64,000 nt of DNA from Puniceicoccaceae bacterium Marseille-Q1082. GTDB lineage: Bacteria; Verrucomicrobiota; Verrucomicrobiia; Opitutales; Intestinicryptomonadaceae. The position numbers were made by a program, and so were the translations under genes. Shown one piece after another: positions 40,189 to 47,047 of this stretch (position 1 is its first letter; every line of letters begins with the position of its first letter). The DNA lies in NCBI GenBank assembly GCA_904424815.1, contig CAJGBI010000001.1, positions 1,631,671 to 1,695,670 of the forward strand. The letters are read 5' to 3'. The notes under the pieces were generated by a model. The model was not told the DNA's origin and searched no databases. It was given only the letters and a program-made list of their open reading frames with translations.

Positions 40189-40908
40189 CTACCTGCCCGC
40201 CGCGGAAAACTCTATTGTTACGACGCACTTGACGTCCTTTTCAAAGCTTGAAGTGTCGTACATTCCCCAGTCGCTCGTATCGTTGGACAGCGGGCGCGTA
40301 ATCTGGAATATCCCCTGCGACGCCGACACGACGGGCCCGAGCTTGGAGCCGCTGCCGCTCACGAGCTTTTCCGCCCTTTCGCGCGCGTTTTGGGCGGCGG
40401 CCTCGAGCAGCCGCATTTTGAGCGATTCCAATCCGGTATAATAATACCGCGCCTCCCCGGGGAAAATCGGGACGCCGCTTTTGAGGAGCTCGGAACACGC
40501 GGCTTCAACATTGACGATTTCTTCGCGCGAGTTTGCGGAGACGGAAATCGAAAGCGCCGCCGCATACGCTTCCACTACATTTGTAGTTGCCCCCTTTTCG
40601 ACCTTGTAGACGGGGCTTGCGGATACGGCGGAAAATTCCGCGCGCCGGACGGAACGCTTTTCAAACTCCGCCTTCGCGAGCGCCGCGAATTTCTCCGCTT
40701 CCGCCGCCGCCGCGCGCAGGGACGGGGCGCGCACGTAAATCTTGGCGCCCCATTCGGCGGCGTCGCTTTGGACGCGCTCTACGGCGGTTCCCTTGACTTT
40801 TATCCCCCCTGCGTTGCGGAACACAACCGACGGGTTGACGAGTATCGCGGCGCACGCAACAAGCGCGCACGCCAGAATTGCCGAGCAAAATATAACGGTT
40901 TTTTTCAT
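40189..40908 (-). CDS. SIMPL (DUF541) domain exported protein
   Basis: 239 residues from ATG 40908 (MKKTVIFCSAILACALVACAAILV, signal anchor or signal peptide). SIMPL-type features: VFRNAGGIKVKGTAVERVQSDAAEWGAKIYVRA, YKVEKGATTNVVEAYAAALSISVSA, and YYYTGLESLKMRLLEAAAQNARERAEKLVSGSGSKLGPVVSASQGIFQIT. These are conserved blocks of the periplasmic DUF541 family related to BP26/OMP28; biological role poorly defined. It is divergent from the cobalamin-riboswitch operon. Confidence 0.8.
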   Translation of the reverse strand: MKKTVIFCSAILACALVACAAILVNPSVVFRNAGGIKVKGTAVERVQSDAAEWGAKIYVRAPSLRAAAAEAEKFAALAKAEFEKRSVRRAEFSAVSASPVYKVEKGATTNVVEAYAAALSISVSANSREEIVNVEAACSELLKSGVPIFPGEARYYYTGLESLKMRLLEAAAQNARERAEKLVSGSGSKLGPVVSASQGIFQITRPLSNDTSDWGMYDTSSFEKDVKCVVTIEFSAAGR

Positions 40909-41136
40909 TGCAAAAGCTTTGAGAAAAAACGGGGCCGCCGCGTTCAAATTCGACGGCGAAAATCGAAAAATATTTTGGGCGCGGAGAATTTCCCGCAAAC
41001 CTTCCGCAAAAAATAATCCCAAAAAAACGTTTGACATTTCCGCACGGCGTCAATTTTCATTGCGGGCAGTTCATTTTCATGCGGATTTTTTTTTAATCCG
41101 ACAGCCGGCAATGAAGCAAGCCGGCGGCGACATTTT

Positions 41137-41295
41137 CAGGCAAACGGAAGTCCGTGAGAATCGGACGCGGTCGCGCCTCTGTAATCGTCCTCAAAATCCG
41201 GGCACAAAGCCACTGCGCAAAGCGCGGGAAGGCGCACGGAAGGCGGGCGGGAATTTTCCTCCCCCCGCCGGGACGCAAGCCAGAAGACGTGCCTG
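41137..41295 (+). promoter_or_regulatory. Cobalamin (adenosylcobalamin-type) riboswitch
   Basis: The closing stem P1 is CAGGCA (41137-41142) / TGCCTG (41290-41295). Between them lie conserved blocks in order: GGAAGTCCGTGAGAATCGGA, GCGGTCGCGCCTCTGTAATCG, GCCACTG (41209-41215), GGGAAGG (41226-41232) and the B12-box-like AAGCCAGAAGACGTGCCTG. This order and spacing match the Cbl riboswitch consensus. About 170 bases of leader separate it from the ATG at 41464, including a stem GCCTCCC/GGGAGGC near the ribosome site. It should shut off the operon when B12 is plentiful. Confidence 0.9.
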
Positions 41296-41463
41296 GAAAT
41301 TTCCCTTTGATTCCCGCGCAAGGAAGACAGAGGGCTTGGTTGCGATTCGGCACGGCGCCCGTTTTTCCGTCAAATCCCGCGCGCCATGCGCCTTTTTTCG
41401 CCCGCAAGCCTCCCCCGTTTTCCGGAGAGGGAGGCAAAATTCCAAAACGAAAAAAGGCAAACT

Positions 41464-42462
41464 ATGAAATTGAAAAAAATATCGGCGCTGGGCGCGGGCC
41501 TGGCAATGGCGGCGGCGGCAAACGCGGCCGCAATATCGTTTGACGACGTTCCGATCCGCGGAAACTGGGAATTCTCATACACGGACTACTCCGTCTACGG
41601 AGGCGAAGACGTATACGAATGGTCGCCGTCGCCCTCCGGTTCGGTGGAGTCGTGGCAGGCCATGCCGGCAAATGTCGGCAGGTTTGAGTGGAATTCTGCG
41701 GTGGACGGCATTTCGGGCGGATTGCAGTTCAAGACTACCTCATACAATTACGAATATTACAACGGCGGCGGATTTCTGCTCTCAAATTCCTCCGACACAT
41801 CAAACATATCGTATTCAAACGACCTCTGCTCCGTCACCGGAACCGGCGCGGGGGGCTCGCAACAATACGCGGTATTTTACGGCAACGTCTCCGATTCAAA
41901 CGGGGTTGCGAGCAAAACCGCGTACAAGGGGACCGAATATTTTTCTACGGTGCCCGAAACCTACCAGCTGGTTTTTGACGACATCGTTTCGGTGAGCTCG
42001 GTAGACATAGCCAACACGCTCGTCGGCGCAAAAATACTCGGCAATCCCGACAGTTCGATGAATATGGGCTACACCGAAAGCGAAGGCGGGCTCATCGTAT
42101 ACGACAGCGTTTACAACACCGACGACGCGTTTTTCGCCGTCCTAATCCGCGGGATATACGCGGACGGAACTCTGACTGAAACCGACGAGGCGGTATGCTA
42201 TGTGCTCGCCTCCCACGGATTCCTCAGCGAAGAATGGAACACTGTCGACCTGTCCTCGCTTTCCGCCGACGGGCTGATAGGGCTGGACTTCCAAATCCTC
42301 TCGTCCTTCGGCAACGCATGGGGCATGACGTCTCCCGCGTATTTCGCGCTCGACAACATCGTATACGGAGCGGTTCCGGAACCCGCAGCCGTCTCCGCAT
42401 TATTCGGAATGCTCGCGCTCTCAACGGCGCTGCGCAACAGAAAGATTTCTTCACGCAAATAA
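41464..42462 (+). CDS. DUF4465-like PEP-CTERM protein, putative cobamide-capture surface protein
   Basis: 332 residues: signal peptide (KKISALGAGLAMAAAANAAA), a beta-sandwich region, and tail VPEPAAVSALFGMLALSTAL-RNRKISSRK. The body shows the DUF4465 pattern: opening ISFDDVPIRGNWEFSYTDYSVY, NDLCSVTGTGAGGSQQYAVFYG, VSSVDIANTLVGAKIL, AVLIRGIYADGTLTETDEAVCYVLAS, and WNTVDLSSLSADGLIGLDFQILSSFGNAWGMTSPAYFALDNIVYG. As I recall, related surface lipoproteins (BtuH type) of Bacteroidetes bind B12. Here the lipid anchor is replaced by a PEP-CTERM tail. It is the first gene after the cobalamin riboswitch, upstream of btuB. Confidence 0.78.
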   Translation: MKLKKISALGAGLAMAAAANAAAISFDDVPIRGNWEFSYTDYSVYGGEDVYEWSPSPSGSVESWQAMPANVGRFEWNSAVDGISGGLQFKTTSYNYEYYNGGGFLLSNSSDTSNISYSNDLCSVTGTGAGGSQQYAVFYGNVSDSNGVASKTAYKGTEYFSTVPETYQLVFDDIVSVSSVDIANTLVGAKILGNPDSSMNMGYTESEGGLIVYDSVYNTDDAFFAVLIRGIYADGTLTETDEAVCYVLASHGFLSEEWNTVDLSSLSADGLIGLDFQILSSFGNAWGMTSPAYFALDNIVYGAVPEPAAVSALFGMLALSTALRNRKISSRK

Positions 42463-42469
42463 CCAACGG

Positions 42470-42515
42470 CGCGGGGCGCGCGGCTTTTCGTTTTTCGCGC
42501 GCGCCCCGCGTTTTT
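42470..42515 (+). terminator. Strong hairpin with T-run between the DUF4465-like gene and btuB
   Basis: CGCGGGGCGCGCG (42470-42482) and CGCGCGCCCCGCG (42498-42510), then TTTTT. A perfect 13-bp stem eight bases after the stop. It should reduce transcription into btuB, giving more of the first protein. Confidence 0.7.
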
Positions 42516-42523
42516 CATTTTGC

Positions 42524-42560
42524 GGCAACGCGCTCCCGCCGCCGGCGGGAGCGCGTTGCC
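42524..42560 (+). promoter_or_regulatory. 17-bp perfect hairpin immediately upstream of btuB
   Basis: GGCAACGCGCTCCCGCC (42524-42540) pairs perfectly with 42544-42560 around a 3-base loop. There is no T-run. It ends 16 bases before the GTG start of btuB, so it may protect the downstream transcript or affect translation. Confidence 0.6.
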
Positions 42561-42576
42561 CCACGGAAGCCCAAAA

Positions 42577-44601
42577 GTGAACTTCAGAATTTTAAATGCA
42601 ATCATGATCGCGCTTCCCGCAGTTGCGGCGTCCGCGGAAAATCCGGACGGAGGCGAAAAGCGCGGCGAACGCGCGCCGGAGCTCGCGCCCGTGGAGGCGA
42701 CGGCGTACAGGTTCGCCTCCGCCGCGCTCGACCAGCCCGTAAACTCGACCGTAATAGGCTCGGACGAAATAGAAAAGAGCGGCGCGTCCACCGTTCCCGA
42801 GATGCTGCAGCGCACCGGCAGCGTGCGCTTTATGAGCTATACCGGCGACTCTTCGAACGGCAATATCGCCATGCGCGGATTCGGGGAAAATTCCCAGCTG
42901 AGGGTTCTCGTCCTCGTAGACGGGCAGCGGTACAACCGCGCGGACATGTCGGAGACAAACTGGCTGCAAATCCCCCTTTCAAACGTCGAGAGCATAGAGG
43001 TGCTCAGGGGCGCCCAAAGCGCGATGTACGGCAACAACGCGGTCGCGGGGGTCGTAAAAATCTCGACAAAAAAGGACGCCGAAGAAAACGCGATAGAGCT
43101 GAACGGCATGATGGGCTCGTACGGGCTGTATTCGGCGGACGCGTCGTTTCGCGGGTCCGCCGGCGGATTCGGATACGGAATCGACGCCAACAGGTACAAC
43201 AACGACGGGTACCGCGAAAATTCGAGGGCTTGGGCCGACACGGTAAACGCCTCCGCAAGCTGCAAAATATCCGATTCCGCGAAAATCGAGCTGGCCGGAA
43301 ACTTTTCGCTGGCGGAAACCGAATACGCCACGGGCACGGACTGGAACGGCTTCCAGAACAACCCCCGCGACGCCGACTTGCGGATGCTCTACAAATACAA
43401 GGGAGGGGTCTATTCGGCAACGCTCAAAAACGAGTCCGCCCTCGGGCGCGGAGAAATACAGTTCGGCGCGAATTTCAGAAACAGAATAGTCGAGGAAAGC
43501 AACGCACTCGCCCCGTCGCAAAACCGCAACGACCAGCTCACTTTCACGCTGTCGCCCAGATGCGAAATAGACAGGTTCGAAGACTGGACGCTTTACGCGG
43601 GCGCCGACGCGGACTTCACCTCCATTGACTTCGACTCTTACAGATTCTTCGCCAGCGGCGCGCAAAATCCCGACAGGGCGAAAGTCGAACGCGGAAACAT
43701 GGGCGGATACGCGGGCGCGGAATACAGGGCGGCGGACAATCTGATATTCTCCGCTTCCGCGCGCGCGGAGGGCTCCTACACGAGCGCCGACAGCAGGAGG
43801 TTCATATACATGGGCAACCGTCCCCCGAGGCCGGACCCCCAAAACACCTATGACAAAAGCCAGTGGCAGGGGGGATTCGCAGGGTCGTTCGGGGCCACAT
43901 ACAAGCTCGACGGCGAAAATTCCGTGTACGCGCGCTTCGACCAGATATACAGGTACCCCTCCACCGACGAAATCGCCTTTTACCAGGGGTACTACCAGGC
44001 CTCGGCGTTTCCATTCAACAAAGACTTGAAGCCGGAAACCGGACAAAACTACGAGATTGGATACACGCGCATCTCCGGCGGATGGCGCGTAAACCTGAGC
44101 TTCTACGCAACGTATCTGGACAACGAAATAATGTACGACTACGCCAGCGGGCTCAACGAAAACTTTTCGTCCACGCTCAGGCTCGGCGCGGATTTTTCCG
44201 TCAGGTACGACTCCGAATACTTCGGCGTTTTCGCGGGCGCGGGAGCCGTTGACGCGCGCTTCGCAAGCGGAAGGCACGGCGGAAACAAAATTCCGCTCGT
44301 GCCGCCGTTTTCCGGAACGGCGGGGATAACGCTCAAACCCGTGGAAGGTTTGGAGCTTACCGCGCGCGGCAACTGGTCTATGCCGCAGACAATGGGCAAC
44401 GATTTCGCAAACTCCATGCGCCGCATACCCGGGTTCGCCACGTTCGACCTGCTCGCGAGCTACCGCATATGCAAATACGCCGCCGTATTCGGCGCAATAG
44501 AAAACGTCTTTAACGAAAACTACGCCGTGTTCGCGTACAACGGCTCATACTATCCGTGCGCGGGCAGGGTGTTCAAAATGGGAATATCGCTGAAATATTA
44601 G
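42577..44601 (+). CDS. btuB: BtuB-type TonB-dependent outer-membrane receptor (cobalamin)
   Basis: 674 residues. I choose GTG 42577 since it gives a signal peptide (NFRILNAIMIALPAVAASA) and follows GGAAG; the longer frame covers the hairpin. TonB-box-like ELAPVEATAYRF is followed by the plug: STVIGSDEIEKSGASTVPEMLQRTGSV, GNIAMRGFGENSQLRVLVLVDGQRYNRADMSE, and VESIEVLRGAQSAMYGNNAVAGVVKISTKK. The rest alternates as a 22-stranded beta-barrel, and the last strand ends FKMGISLKY with a terminal aromatic. Its place under a cobalamin riboswitch, between two exported PEP-CTERM proteins, supports a B12/cobamide substrate. TonB, ExbBD and BtuFCD are not in the window. Confidence 0.88.
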   Translation: MNFRILNAIMIALPAVAASAENPDGGEKRGERAPELAPVEATAYRFASAALDQPVNSTVIGSDEIEKSGASTVPEMLQRTGSVRFMSYTGDSSNGNIAMRGFGENSQLRVLVLVDGQRYNRADMSETNWLQIPLSNVESIEVLRGAQSAMYGNNAVAGVVKISTKKDAEENAIELNGMMGSYGLYSADASFRGSAGGFGYGIDANRYNNDGYRENSRAWADTVNASASCKISDSAKIELAGNFSLAETEYATGTDWNGFQNNPRDADLRMLYKYKGGVYSATLKNESALGRGEIQFGANFRNRIVEESNALAPSQNRNDQLTFTLSPRCEIDRFEDWTLYAGADADFTSIDFDSYRFFASGAQNPDRAKVERGNMGGYAGAEYRAADNLIFSASARAEGSYTSADSRRFIYMGNRPPRPDPQNTYDKSQWQGGFAGSFGATYKLDGENSVYARFDQIYRYPSTDEIAFYQGYYQASAFPFNKDLKPETGQNYEIGYTRISGGWRVNLSFYATYLDNEIMYDYASGLNENFSSTLRLGADFSVRYDSEYFGVFAGAGAVDARFASGRHGGNKIPLVPPFSGTAGITLKPVEGLELTARGNWSMPQTMGNDFANSMRRIPGFATFDLLASYRICKYAAVFGAIENVFNENYAVFAYNGSYYPCAGRVFKMGISLKY

Positions 44602-44603
44602 AC

Positions 44604-45986
44604 ATGAAAGCAAAACTGACTTCCATAACGGCGGCAATCGCCGCGCTGTCGGCATACGCCGGCGAATACTACATACCCCAAAACGGGGAGAGCTACACCG
44701 TGGACGAGTACGGGATACTGTACTGCGGGCAGGCGGGAGTCGACCCCTCGAAAACCTCGGAGGTGTATTACAGAAACTCCGCCATAAAAGGCTGGGCGAC
44801 GGGATACGAAAACGTGTCGTACGGCTCCAATGTAATAGACAGGTGGCGGACGCCCGAAAAGGCCCTCGGCTCCGCCGGACTCGCCGACTACGGCGACACC
44901 GACCCTTCGTCCCCGAATTACGACCCTGACGCCTCGTCGGTCTACCATGTCGTATCCCTCGGCGACGGAGGCTCCATAACGCTAACTTTCGGCGGGCCGA
45001 TCGCCGACGGGGAAGGCCTCGATTTCGCCGTATTTGAAAACGCCGTAAACGCCGGCTTCCTGGAGCTCGCGTACGTATCCGTATCGACCGACGGCGTGAA
45101 TTTCATAACCTTTCCGAACTTCTATGTCGGCGCGAATCCGATAGGCCCGTACACGAACGACAACTATCCGGAATACATATACAACCTCGGCTCGAAATAC
45201 ATGTGCAACTGGGGCCACGGCTACGACCTCGGCGAGCTGCAATACGCCTACGACTACGCCGTCGCCCACTACGACGCCGCGTCGGACTCCACAACCGGAA
45301 ACAGCGCGTTTTCGCTCGAATACACGAAGCACATAATAGAAATGTTCTCGCTCGTCGATCTCGGCGACATAAATTACGTGCGCATAGACGACATCACCGG
45401 CGACGGATCTTGCGTCGACAGCGCGGGCAACCCAATCTACGACCCCTACCCTTCGAGCGAGAGCGGGGGATTCGACCTCAACGCGGTAGGCGTAATAAAT
45501 TACGCTCCGGCGGTTCCCGAGCCCGAAACGTTTGCGGCGGCCCTCGGGCTGTTTGCGGCGGCGGCCGCCGCGGGAAAGAGGCGCAAATGGCGGAAAAGAA
45601 AAAAAGGCTGCGAGATTTCGCAGCCTTTTTTTGCCCATGAAATCCGGAAACTCCCTATCGCCCCCTGCGGTCGAAACCCATTAATCCGAAAATGCCCCTC
45701 AACTTGGAGAGCTTGGGCGCGGAGAAATCCGTCCCCCGACACCCTGCATTGGGAATGCGAAAGCGTAAAAAACGAATCCGGGCATCGCGTCCGGATTTCC
45801 GCGCGATTGGAAAAGAATCGCCCAATAAAATCTCCGCGCAAGCTTTATCCGCCAAAACAGCGAAGTATTTTCGCCTCCGAAAAAAAATCCGCGTCTTGGT
45901 TCCGTCGCCTTAGCGCGCAAAAAACAAAAAGCAGAGCGTTTTTTTGTGGACGCGCGCTTCACGCGCGTTTGAAATGGGCCGAGTGA
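44604..45986 (+). CDS. PEP-CTERM surface protein of the cobalamin operon, with a read-through C-terminus
   Basis: Starts 2 bases after btuB. Signal peptide KAKLTSITAAIAALSAYAG; body contains HVVSLGDGGSITLTFGGPIADGEGLDFAVFENAVN, LELAYVSVSTDGVNFITFPNFY and INYVRIDDITGDG. This pattern resembles the 'cell surface protein' family I associate with Bacteroidetes B12 loci. The sorting tail VPEPETFAAALGLFAAAAAAGKRRKWRKRKK ends at about 45605, where a stop is expected. No stop occurs in this frame until 45984, and a strong terminator lies at 45601-45632. The natural product is therefore probably about 334 residues, encoded by a message without a stop codon unless there is a sequence error. Confidence 0.7.
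   Translation: MKAKLTSITAAIAALSAYAGEYYIPQNGESYTVDEYGILYCGQAGVDPSKTSEVYYRNSAIKGWATGYENVSYGSNVIDRWRTPEKALGSAGLADYGDTDPSSPNYDPDASSVYHVVSLGDGGSITLTFGGPIADGEGLDFAVFENAVNAGFLELAYVSVSTDGVNFITFPNFYVGANPIGPYTNDNYPEYIYNLGSKYMCNWGHGYDLGELQYAYDYAVAHYDAASDSTTGNSAFSLEYTKHIIEMFSLVDLGDINYVRIDDITGDGSCVDSAGNPIYDPYPSSESGGFDLNAVGVINYAPAVPEPETFAAALGLFAAAAAAGKRRKWRKRKKGCEISQPFFAHEIRKLPIAPCGRNPLIRKCPSTWRAWARRNPSPDTLHWECESVKNESGHRVRISARLEKNRPIKSPRKLYPPKQRSIFASEKKSASWFRRLSAQKTKSRAFFCGRALHARLKWAE
45601..45632 (+). terminator. Intrinsic terminator of the cobalamin operon
   Basis: AAAAAGGCTGCG (45601-45612) and CGCAGCCTTTTT (45619-45630), loop agattt, seven T residues. It lies inside the open frame of the preceding gene. 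Confidence 0.88.
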
Positions 45987-47047
45987 AATTCGACCCGCAA
46001 AAAATCCACCCCCTGCCGAATTTCGCGCTCTCGGCGCGGGATTTCACGCCCTCCCCGCGCCCCCCGCGCAAAGATTGGGAATTTTTCGCGTCGGGGCGGG
46101 AGGCGTTTTTCAGGATATTCGCGCGCATGAAAAAATCGGGCTTTGCGGGGAGGATTTTCCTGCCGCGCTACTTTTGCCCGGAAGCGGCGCGGGCGGCAGG
46201 CGAAATTTGCGAAACGGAATTTTTTGAAGACCTGCCGTCGGAAAAGTCGCCGCGCTTTGAAACCCTGCGCGCCCGCGCGGGGGACGCGGTAATGGCGGTA
46301 AACTTTTTCGGCCTGCGCGACATGGGGATATGGAGCGGATGGAAACTCCGCAACCCCGGGGCGATACTCGTCCAAAACTCCTCCCACGCGCCGTTTTCGC
46401 CGCGCGCGCAGGGGGCCGACTTCGCGTTCGGGTCGCTGCGCAAATGGCTGCCGCTGCCGGACGGAGGATTCGCCGAGGCGGAAAACCCGTCCGAAATTTT
46501 CGCGCGCCCCGCGTCCTCAATGCCAGACTTTTCCGCGGATTTCCTCGCGGCCTCCGCCGCGCGGTCGCGCGGGAGCGGGTGGGAGGAATTTGCTGAAAAG
46601 CTCTTCTACGCGGCGGAAGCGAAAATTTCCGCGCGCAAAAAGCCCGGCAGAATGGGCGCGTACTCTTTCGAAACCCTCGCGCGCCTCGACATCGAAAAGC
46701 TCGCCCAAAGGAGGTTCGCCGCCATAAGGGCGTTTTCAGACGCCGCGCGCGGCAACGGATTTTTCGAAGAGCTCACTTTTGCGGGCGGACGCGCGCCCGA
46801 CATTTTCTCCGCCTGCTGCCCCGTCCTGAAATTCCGGAATCCCCGCGTCCGCGACGCCGTATACGCAAAACTCCGCGAAAAAAAGATGTTCGCGCCCATA
46901 TACTGGGGAGGGTTCGGAGAGGCGGGCAGCCCCGCGGCGCGCGCAGAGTCCGCGACGCTCATGTGCGTCCCGCCGCACTTTGCGGATTCCGAAAGCGAGG
47001 CGGAAGGGTTTTGCGAATTTATCCTCGGCCTGTGCGCCGGCGCATGA
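45974..47047 (+). CDS. DegT-like PLP-fold protein with altered cofactor-site residues
   Basis: 357 residues from ATG 45974. An aspartate-aminotransferase-fold protein of the DegT-like group: FFASGREAFFRIF at the N-terminus, GFAGRIFLPRYFCPEA, AVMAVNFFGLRD, ILVQNSSHAPFS, and FAFGSLRKWLPLPDGGFAE with Lys157 as the expected PLP lysine. In relatives the segment before H is V(I)EDATHS; here it is VQNSSHA, so the acidic residue that normally contacts the PLP nitrogen is Asn. It may be a weak or non-aminating member. It lies downstream of the cobalamin operon terminator and overlaps the 3' end of the opposite gluQ-like gene by 29 bases. Confidence 0.65.
   Translation: MGRVKFDPQKIHPLPNFALSARDFTPSPRPPRKDWEFFASGREAFFRIFARMKKSGFAGRIFLPRYFCPEAARAAGEICETEFFEDLPSEKSPRFETLRARAGDAVMAVNFFGLRDMGIWSGWKLRNPGAILVQNSSHAPFSPRAQGADFAFGSLRKWLPLPDGGFAEAENPSEIFARPASSMPDFSADFLAASAARSRGSGWEEFAEKLFYAAEAKISARKKPGRMGAYSFETLARLDIEKLAQRRFAAIRAFSDAARGNGFFEELTFAGGRAPDIFSACCPVLKFRNPRVRDAVYAKLREKKMFAPIYWGGFGEAGSPAARAESATLMCVPPHFADSESEAEGFCEFILGLCAGA

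Follow-up and report, generated by a model that had tools for sequence, protein, structure and literature searches.

Surface capture of vitamin B12 has so far been worked out mainly on lipoproteins of gut Bacteroides. The DUF4465 proteins of B. thetaiotaomicron carry the name BtuJ (PMC12751083), and in 2026 B12 binding by DUF4465 proteins was demonstrated across phyla: six newly purified members bound B12 (eight by our count with BtuJ1 and BtuJ2 included), an HI-loop motif with a conserved tyrosine was defined, and the structure of D5EK51 from Coraliomargarita akajimensis was solved with B12 (PMC13398666). Among 824 DUF4465 sequences, IPR013424, which denotes PEP-CTERM (PMC4870267), was found on 88 and IPR026444 on 229 (PMC12751083). 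Here we analyse a 64-kb stretch of Puniceicoccaceae bacterium Marseille-Q1082 (hereafter the window; all coordinates count from its first letter) carrying an operon in which a cobalamin (Cbl) riboswitch precedes genes for an exported DUF4465 protein (protein 1), a TonB-dependent receptor and a second exported protein, P3. This operon probably serves cobamide acquisition, with two exosortase-tailed capture proteins and an importing TonB receptor. An original prediction made from the sequence had described a Cbl-riboswitch operon of a receptor and two tailed exported proteins, an observation confirmed overall; of its interpretation, riboswitch control, the DUF4465 domain and the tailed, B12-binder-like partners stood, but the BtuH assignment had to be corrected and the novelty of protein 1 proved smaller than supposed.

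Results

The operon, encoded on the + strand throughout, opens with an RF00174 aptamer (41121..41310) that cmscan scored at 76.5 bits against a gathering score of 31.5 (E 4.4e-17), and the predicted Cbl riboswitch is therefore upheld by its covariance model; the only other Rfam matches over gathering score in the window are two tRNAs. Protein 1 (41464..42462) matches Pfam DUF4465 (PF14717) with 73.2 bits over a cut-off of 25 (E 4.4e-20), as predicted for this reading frame, and in its HI-loop, MTSPAYF, the position of the B12-binding tyrosine is conserved, most of the relatives listed having NTP-type loops. From the published function of its family, protein 1 would be expected to bind cobamides. 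The original prediction took BtuH to be DUF4465-like; we rule out this equation, since the published work names DUF4465 proteins BtuJ (PMC13398666, PMC12751083), and the BtuH-like partner is instead P3. The DUF4465 half of the operon belongs to an established class, and its type of tail has already been tallied in published work. D5EK51 itself was probably once tailed, because the solved chain ends in VPE: the phmmer alignment with the 9HMU chain stops at residue 250 of 250, suggesting a structure cut at its PEP-CTERM motif. The main text of PMC13398666 makes no mention of PEP-CTERM.

P3 (44604..45605, with an open frame to 45986) consists of a signal peptide, a domain of about 250 residues (residues about 45-297) without a Pfam family, and a VPEP tail. 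Fold prediction places this domain in the BtuH fold, in keeping with the predicted likeness to B12-binding surface proteins: its two best structural matches are BtuH2 (7BIZ) and the H-domain of BtuG1 (8BLW), with 18% identity in the structural alignments. Profile comparison by HHalign gave 93.5/95.9% with 14 cleaned BtuH-type rows, obtained from 30 loci of which 16 had an open reading frame (ORF) match and two, L245 and L257, were removed as junk; the P3 and BtuH hidden Markov models (HMMs) also match in both directions. All 69 P3 rows have an Asn at the position that appears to correspond to BtuH2 Asn399. Searching the PDB with the P3 sequence alone returned no match, and a P3 profile ranked 8BLW first with E values of 0.006 and 0.036 that are not significant alone. 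Since P3 has a single domain, no Pfam domain and no Cys in its first 40 residues, we call it BtuH-like rather than BtuH proper, and we infer cobamide binding from its fold, homology and context.

Two other identities for P3 were rejected. An iterated DUF4465 HMM absorbed P3, yet clean domain profiles of the two are unrelated (HHalign 0.3%), and we therefore discarded the DUF4465 labels that this HMM placed on P3 proteins. The LIC_13355 family (NF033170) reached 49 of the 69 members of P3 set A2 at E<=0.01 (best 6.9e-6) and 16 of the 30 members of set A1 (best 1.9e-8), too weak to supply a family name; the P3 of the window scores 17.5 bits, far under the curated cut-off of 120. LIC_13355 is a Leptospira lipoprotein studied for binding to the host or host components (PMC11891782), and a kinship with BtuH-like domains would point to a different interpretation.

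The C-termini of both exported proteins have a VPEP motif, a hydrophobic segment and a basic end. The genome of the window encodes 2 exosortases, and its PEP-CTERM matches at E<=10 number 70, with 28 exceeding the cut-off; some match at E<=10 occurs in 13 of 14 control genomes, and 0 exceed the cut-off. Genus relatives also carry PEP-CTERM-type tails on these proteins. A same-genus, one-contig genome (G067) has no match for P3, DUF4465, a cobalamin riboswitch or an exosortase, and offers a natural contrast. By regular expression, which makes tail and lipobox counts approximate, the PEP-CTERM pattern ends 23 of 26 DUF4465 ORFs and occurs in 17 of 44 P3 sequences among the order loci, L191 and the window. 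Across 80 named loci from a wider scan (below), tails are found on 13 P3 proteins, including 8/8 from Betaproteobacteria, and on 17 of 39 separate DUF4465 ORFs; both partners are tailed in nine loci (seven Betaproteobacteria, one Verrucomicrobia and one Phycisphaerae metagenome-assembled genome, or MAG). Methyloversatilis and Methylobacillus (L114, L116, L118) provide examples of the doubly tailed pair. Two other genera of the family encode long untailed P3 proteins with DUF4465 partners that are still tailed. On a quick tree of 121 P3 domains, built without bootstrap and excluding three order rows that duplicated named loci, no fewer than 11 changes of the tail label are required, 5 of them forced by well-supported branches. 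This makes the tail a modular, recurrent feature. The idea that an exosortase-type tail replaces the lipid anchor on B12-binder-like proteins is supported for both partners.

Within the taxonomic order of the window (177 genomes), P3 occurs in 46, DUF4465 in 38 and both in 33. A scan of named genomes found at least 542 P3 relatives, of which the best 80 were kept; by record titles, from which all phylum labels were taken, these span Verrucomicrobiota, Planctomycetota, Proteobacteria, Desulfobacterota, Bacteroidota, Spirochaetes, Myxococcota, Kiritimatiellae and others. DUF4465 lies on the same strand and no more than 3 kb away from P3 in 47 of these 80 loci (11 fusions included) and a TonB receptor does so in 53, the latter by an HMM seeded from the lineage of the window that may miss distant receptors; at least one of the two neighbours is present in 69 loci and both in 31. 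The riboswitch survey covered 49 of the 80 loci, chosen mainly for long upstream sequence. RF00174 is present somewhere in 47 of the 49 genomes, and 45 of the 49 loci have it, by coordinates, on the same strand no more than 7 kb upstream. Direct cmscan of nine loci confirmed six of the 45, found none at L124 and L131 and a related adenosylcobalamin (AdoCbl) riboswitch at L143, giving 46 of 49 with contig identity taken as given for the other 39; the riboswitch placed by coordinates at L124 was accordingly rejected.

Several of these loci have unusual architectures. In L111, L120, L137, L139, L144, L150 and L159, ORFs of ~1000-2020 residues fuse one P3 with one to three DUF4465 domains, and six of the seven are titled Planctomycetota. 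In a deltaproteobacterial MAG (L119 6862-7487), a cobalamin riboswitch and then a c-di-GMP-I-GGC riboswitch stand ahead of a DUF4465-P3 pair.

A Bacteroidales-centred search found P3 in 57 of 198 genomes. Several of the 12 loci fetched run in the order DUF4465 or type IX secretion system (T9SS)-tailed protein, P3, receptor and lipoprotein, the last being DUF5074 (BtuG-type) in both loci scanned, L222 and L226. BtuH matches occur in 27 Bacteroidales-order genomes and P3 and BtuH together in 1, an overlap that assumes the 198 P3-searched genomes lie within the 295 searched for BtuH, with queries that differ in sensitivity. The DUF4465 HMM also picks up one of the Bacteroidales BtuH-type ORFs at E<=1e-5, an apparent BtuH-BtuJ fusion.

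The gene content of the window genome is consistent with an organism using B12 whenever it can be had. It encodes MetH with a B12 activation domain and two tandem FecCD permeases, with no substrate assigned, and a second cobalamin riboswitch (G000 C2:800285-800483; L189 4286-4484) that at 101.5 bits is stronger than that of the operon. This riboswitch directly precedes nrdD, encoding the B12-independent anaerobic ribonucleotide reductase, and a radical-SAM protein that is probably the nrdG activase.

A number of observations weigh against cobamide acquisition by two capture proteins, and most concern P3. With the two junk rows kept, the HHalign value fell to 57.7%, so the profile match depended on cleaning; its strength is confined to the ~80 N-terminal columns, the C-terminal half aligning poorly by sequence, and the match is partly circular because the peptide used to gather the BtuH-type ORFs came from the segment that P3 resembles. 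The structure match is free of this circularity. Among P3 copies in the order loci, 8 of 43 lack both DUF4465 and a receptor in their vicinity, as do 11 of the 80 named loci, two of these 11 (L122 and L128) beginning at a contig end; P3 is therefore not confined to B12 loci. The stand-alone order copies are those of L042, L045, L047, L050, L053, L054 and L055 and the second P3 of L068, several of them PEP-CTERM-tailed. BtuK2 does not bind B12 despite its similarity to BtuK1, and BtuL is also non-binding (PMC12751083), so membership in a B12 locus is no proof of binding. P3 may have a BtuH fold that binds no cobamide and play a BtuL-like role, as receptor lid, docking partner or vesicle-release factor, beside a binding DUF4465 protein. 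We consider this unlikely, if still a serious contender, as both best fold matches are BtuH domains with published B12 binding and the Asn at the presumed Asn399 position does not vary. The 3′ end of P3 is a further difficulty: the original prediction closed the gene at 45605, where there is no in-frame stop, and the frame runs on past the VPEP tail without a stop to 45986, passing through a hairpin with a U tract (45599..45632; -22.2 kcal/mol, z -6.17 by RNA folding) that is the likely operon terminator. Because this hairpin lies inside the frame, terminated transcripts would be without a stop codon; the missing stop (45590-45986) is either genuine or a nearby sequence error.

The tails add a second difficulty. 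The original prediction gave both partners PEP-CTERM tails, and the sequence pattern and the exosortases agree, but against PF07589 the tails score 12.5 and 14.6 bits, under the cut-off of 20.7. The tails might instead be transient exosortase release signals, with the pair let go to trap B12 either free or bound to the matrix, in a role like that of vesicle-borne BtuJ. PEP-CTERM has been described as an export sorting signal often tied to exopolysaccharide excretion (PMC4870267), and in B. thetaiotaomicron BtuJ on vesicles delivers B12 (PMC12751083). However, Bacteroidota loci with the same module carry a T9SS tail, which in 3 scanned loci is on an adjacent protein and in 2 on P3; this suggests surface display as the conserved trait, making shedding a rather doubtful alternative to retention of the two capture proteins.

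The receptor (42577..44601, the GTG start suggested by its signal peptide) exceeds the Pfam cut-offs for both Plug (PF07715) and TonB barrel (PF00593), bearing out a TonB receptor, but its predicted BtuB type rests on context. Against the NCBIfam TonB-B12 equivalog TIGR01779 it scores 111.3 bits, below the cut-off of 599.7, and siderophore and heme models score higher, all under their own cut-offs; its best PDB matches are to the pyrroloquinoline quinone (PQQ) transporter PqqU/YncD, ranking above E. coli BtuB. Its sequence does not suffice to diagnose the receptor as BtuB. That it imports another ligand, one dependent on B12 for its synthesis or use and bound by both secreted proteins, would suit the PqqU match and the siderophore and heme scores but is highly improbable, as DUF4465 is a tested B12-binding family and many lineages repeat the same gene set under Cbl riboswitches.

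Additional RNA structures lie within the operon. Between aptamer and protein 1, the leader 41370-41470 folds with z -2.16 (4 of 200 shuffles equally low), and a stem GCCUUUUUUCG/CGAAAAAAGGC (41390..41458) whose 3′ arm ends just 5′ of the DUF4465 start codon (41464) is a possible expression platform; the 41300-41400 piece folds no better than shuffles. In the gap before the receptor gene, a GC-rich hairpin followed by a T run resembles a terminator or attenuator (42468..42512; -33.9 kcal/mol, z -3.7 for 42463-42520), and a 17-bp hairpin with a 3-nt loop (42524..42560; -40.8 kcal/mol, z -5.15 for 42520-42582) lies just 5′ of the receptor start region. With these two strong hairpins (42468-42560) in between, the capture protein might be made in larger amounts than the receptor. 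Generic consensus scans say little: they returned 13 terminator-like sites where shuffled sequence gave 8.9 (sd 3.0), and for promoter-like sites the corresponding figures were 1 and 2.2. By Pfam, the two flanking ORFs scanned in the window are SIMPL (40189-40914) and without family (45944-47044), and neither is BtuG or BtuFCD.

Discussion

Our data point to a model in which scarce B12 would let the riboswitch permit expression of the operon, and the exported BtuJ-type DUF4465 protein, by its published family function, and P3, by its fold, would bind cobamides outside the cell. An exosortase of the genome would process the PEP-CTERM-like tails and so keep both proteins on the cell surface or within the extracellular matrix, the tails filling the role of Bacteroides lipid anchors, and the linked TonB-dependent receptor would then import the cobamide. 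DUF4465, a BtuH-like protein and a receptor would in this model form a conserved cross-phylum module with an exchangeable anchor. More tentatively, BtuJ-type and BtuH-like proteins may be a pan-phylum capture pair whose display is swappable between exosortase tail, T9SS tail, lipid anchor and giant fusion. If so, the site of B12 trapping in exosortase lineages would be the extracellular matrix and not the outer membrane, giving a matrix-borne store handed to BtuB-like receptors, and P3 would be the general form of which Bacteroides BtuH is a PKD-decorated offshoot.

The original prediction knew of no described PEP-CTERM cobamide system. For protein 1 that novelty shrinks in view of the 88 PEP-CTERM entries in print and the VPE end of D5EK51, whereas for P3, widespread and unnamed in Pfam, it grows: the new content is this BtuH-like family and the recurring doubly tailed pair. 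In the open-licence literature we found no paper on the P3 family or the doubly tailed pair, and none linking PEP-CTERM with BtuB or exosortase with vitamin B12 and TonB. With P3, the range of BtuH-type domains would come to include Proteobacteria, Planctomycetota, Desulfobacterota, Spirochaetes, Myxococcota and Verrucomicrobiota, where they lie next to DUF4465 and downstream of B12 riboswitches. To our knowledge the role of PEP-CTERM proteins is mostly unknown, and the P3/DUF4465 pair would give them a concrete, testable function.

Among described systems, the closest to protein 1 are BtuJ1/BtuJ2 of B. thetaiotaomicron (DUF4465, IPR027828) and D5EK51 (PDB 9FCT, 9I2L, 9HMU). Protein 1 shares with BtuJ the DUF4465 domain and the HI-loop tyrosine, and the BtuJ1/J2 loci are likewise riboswitch-controlled with a TonB receptor, but protein 1 has a PEP-CTERM-type tail where BtuJ1/J2 have a lipoprotein anchor. 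P3 resembles BtuH2 and the BtuG1 H-domain of B. thetaiotaomicron in fold, N-terminal motif and the invariant Asn, and differs from BtuH2 in having no N-terminal PKD/immunoglobulin-like domains, no lipobox and a VPEP tail. The Bacteroides BtuB1G1/BtuB2G2 loci similarly bring together a riboswitch, a TonB receptor and surface B12 binders, whereas this operon has no BtuG between its genes and sets a BtuJ-type and a BtuH-like protein on either side of its receptor.
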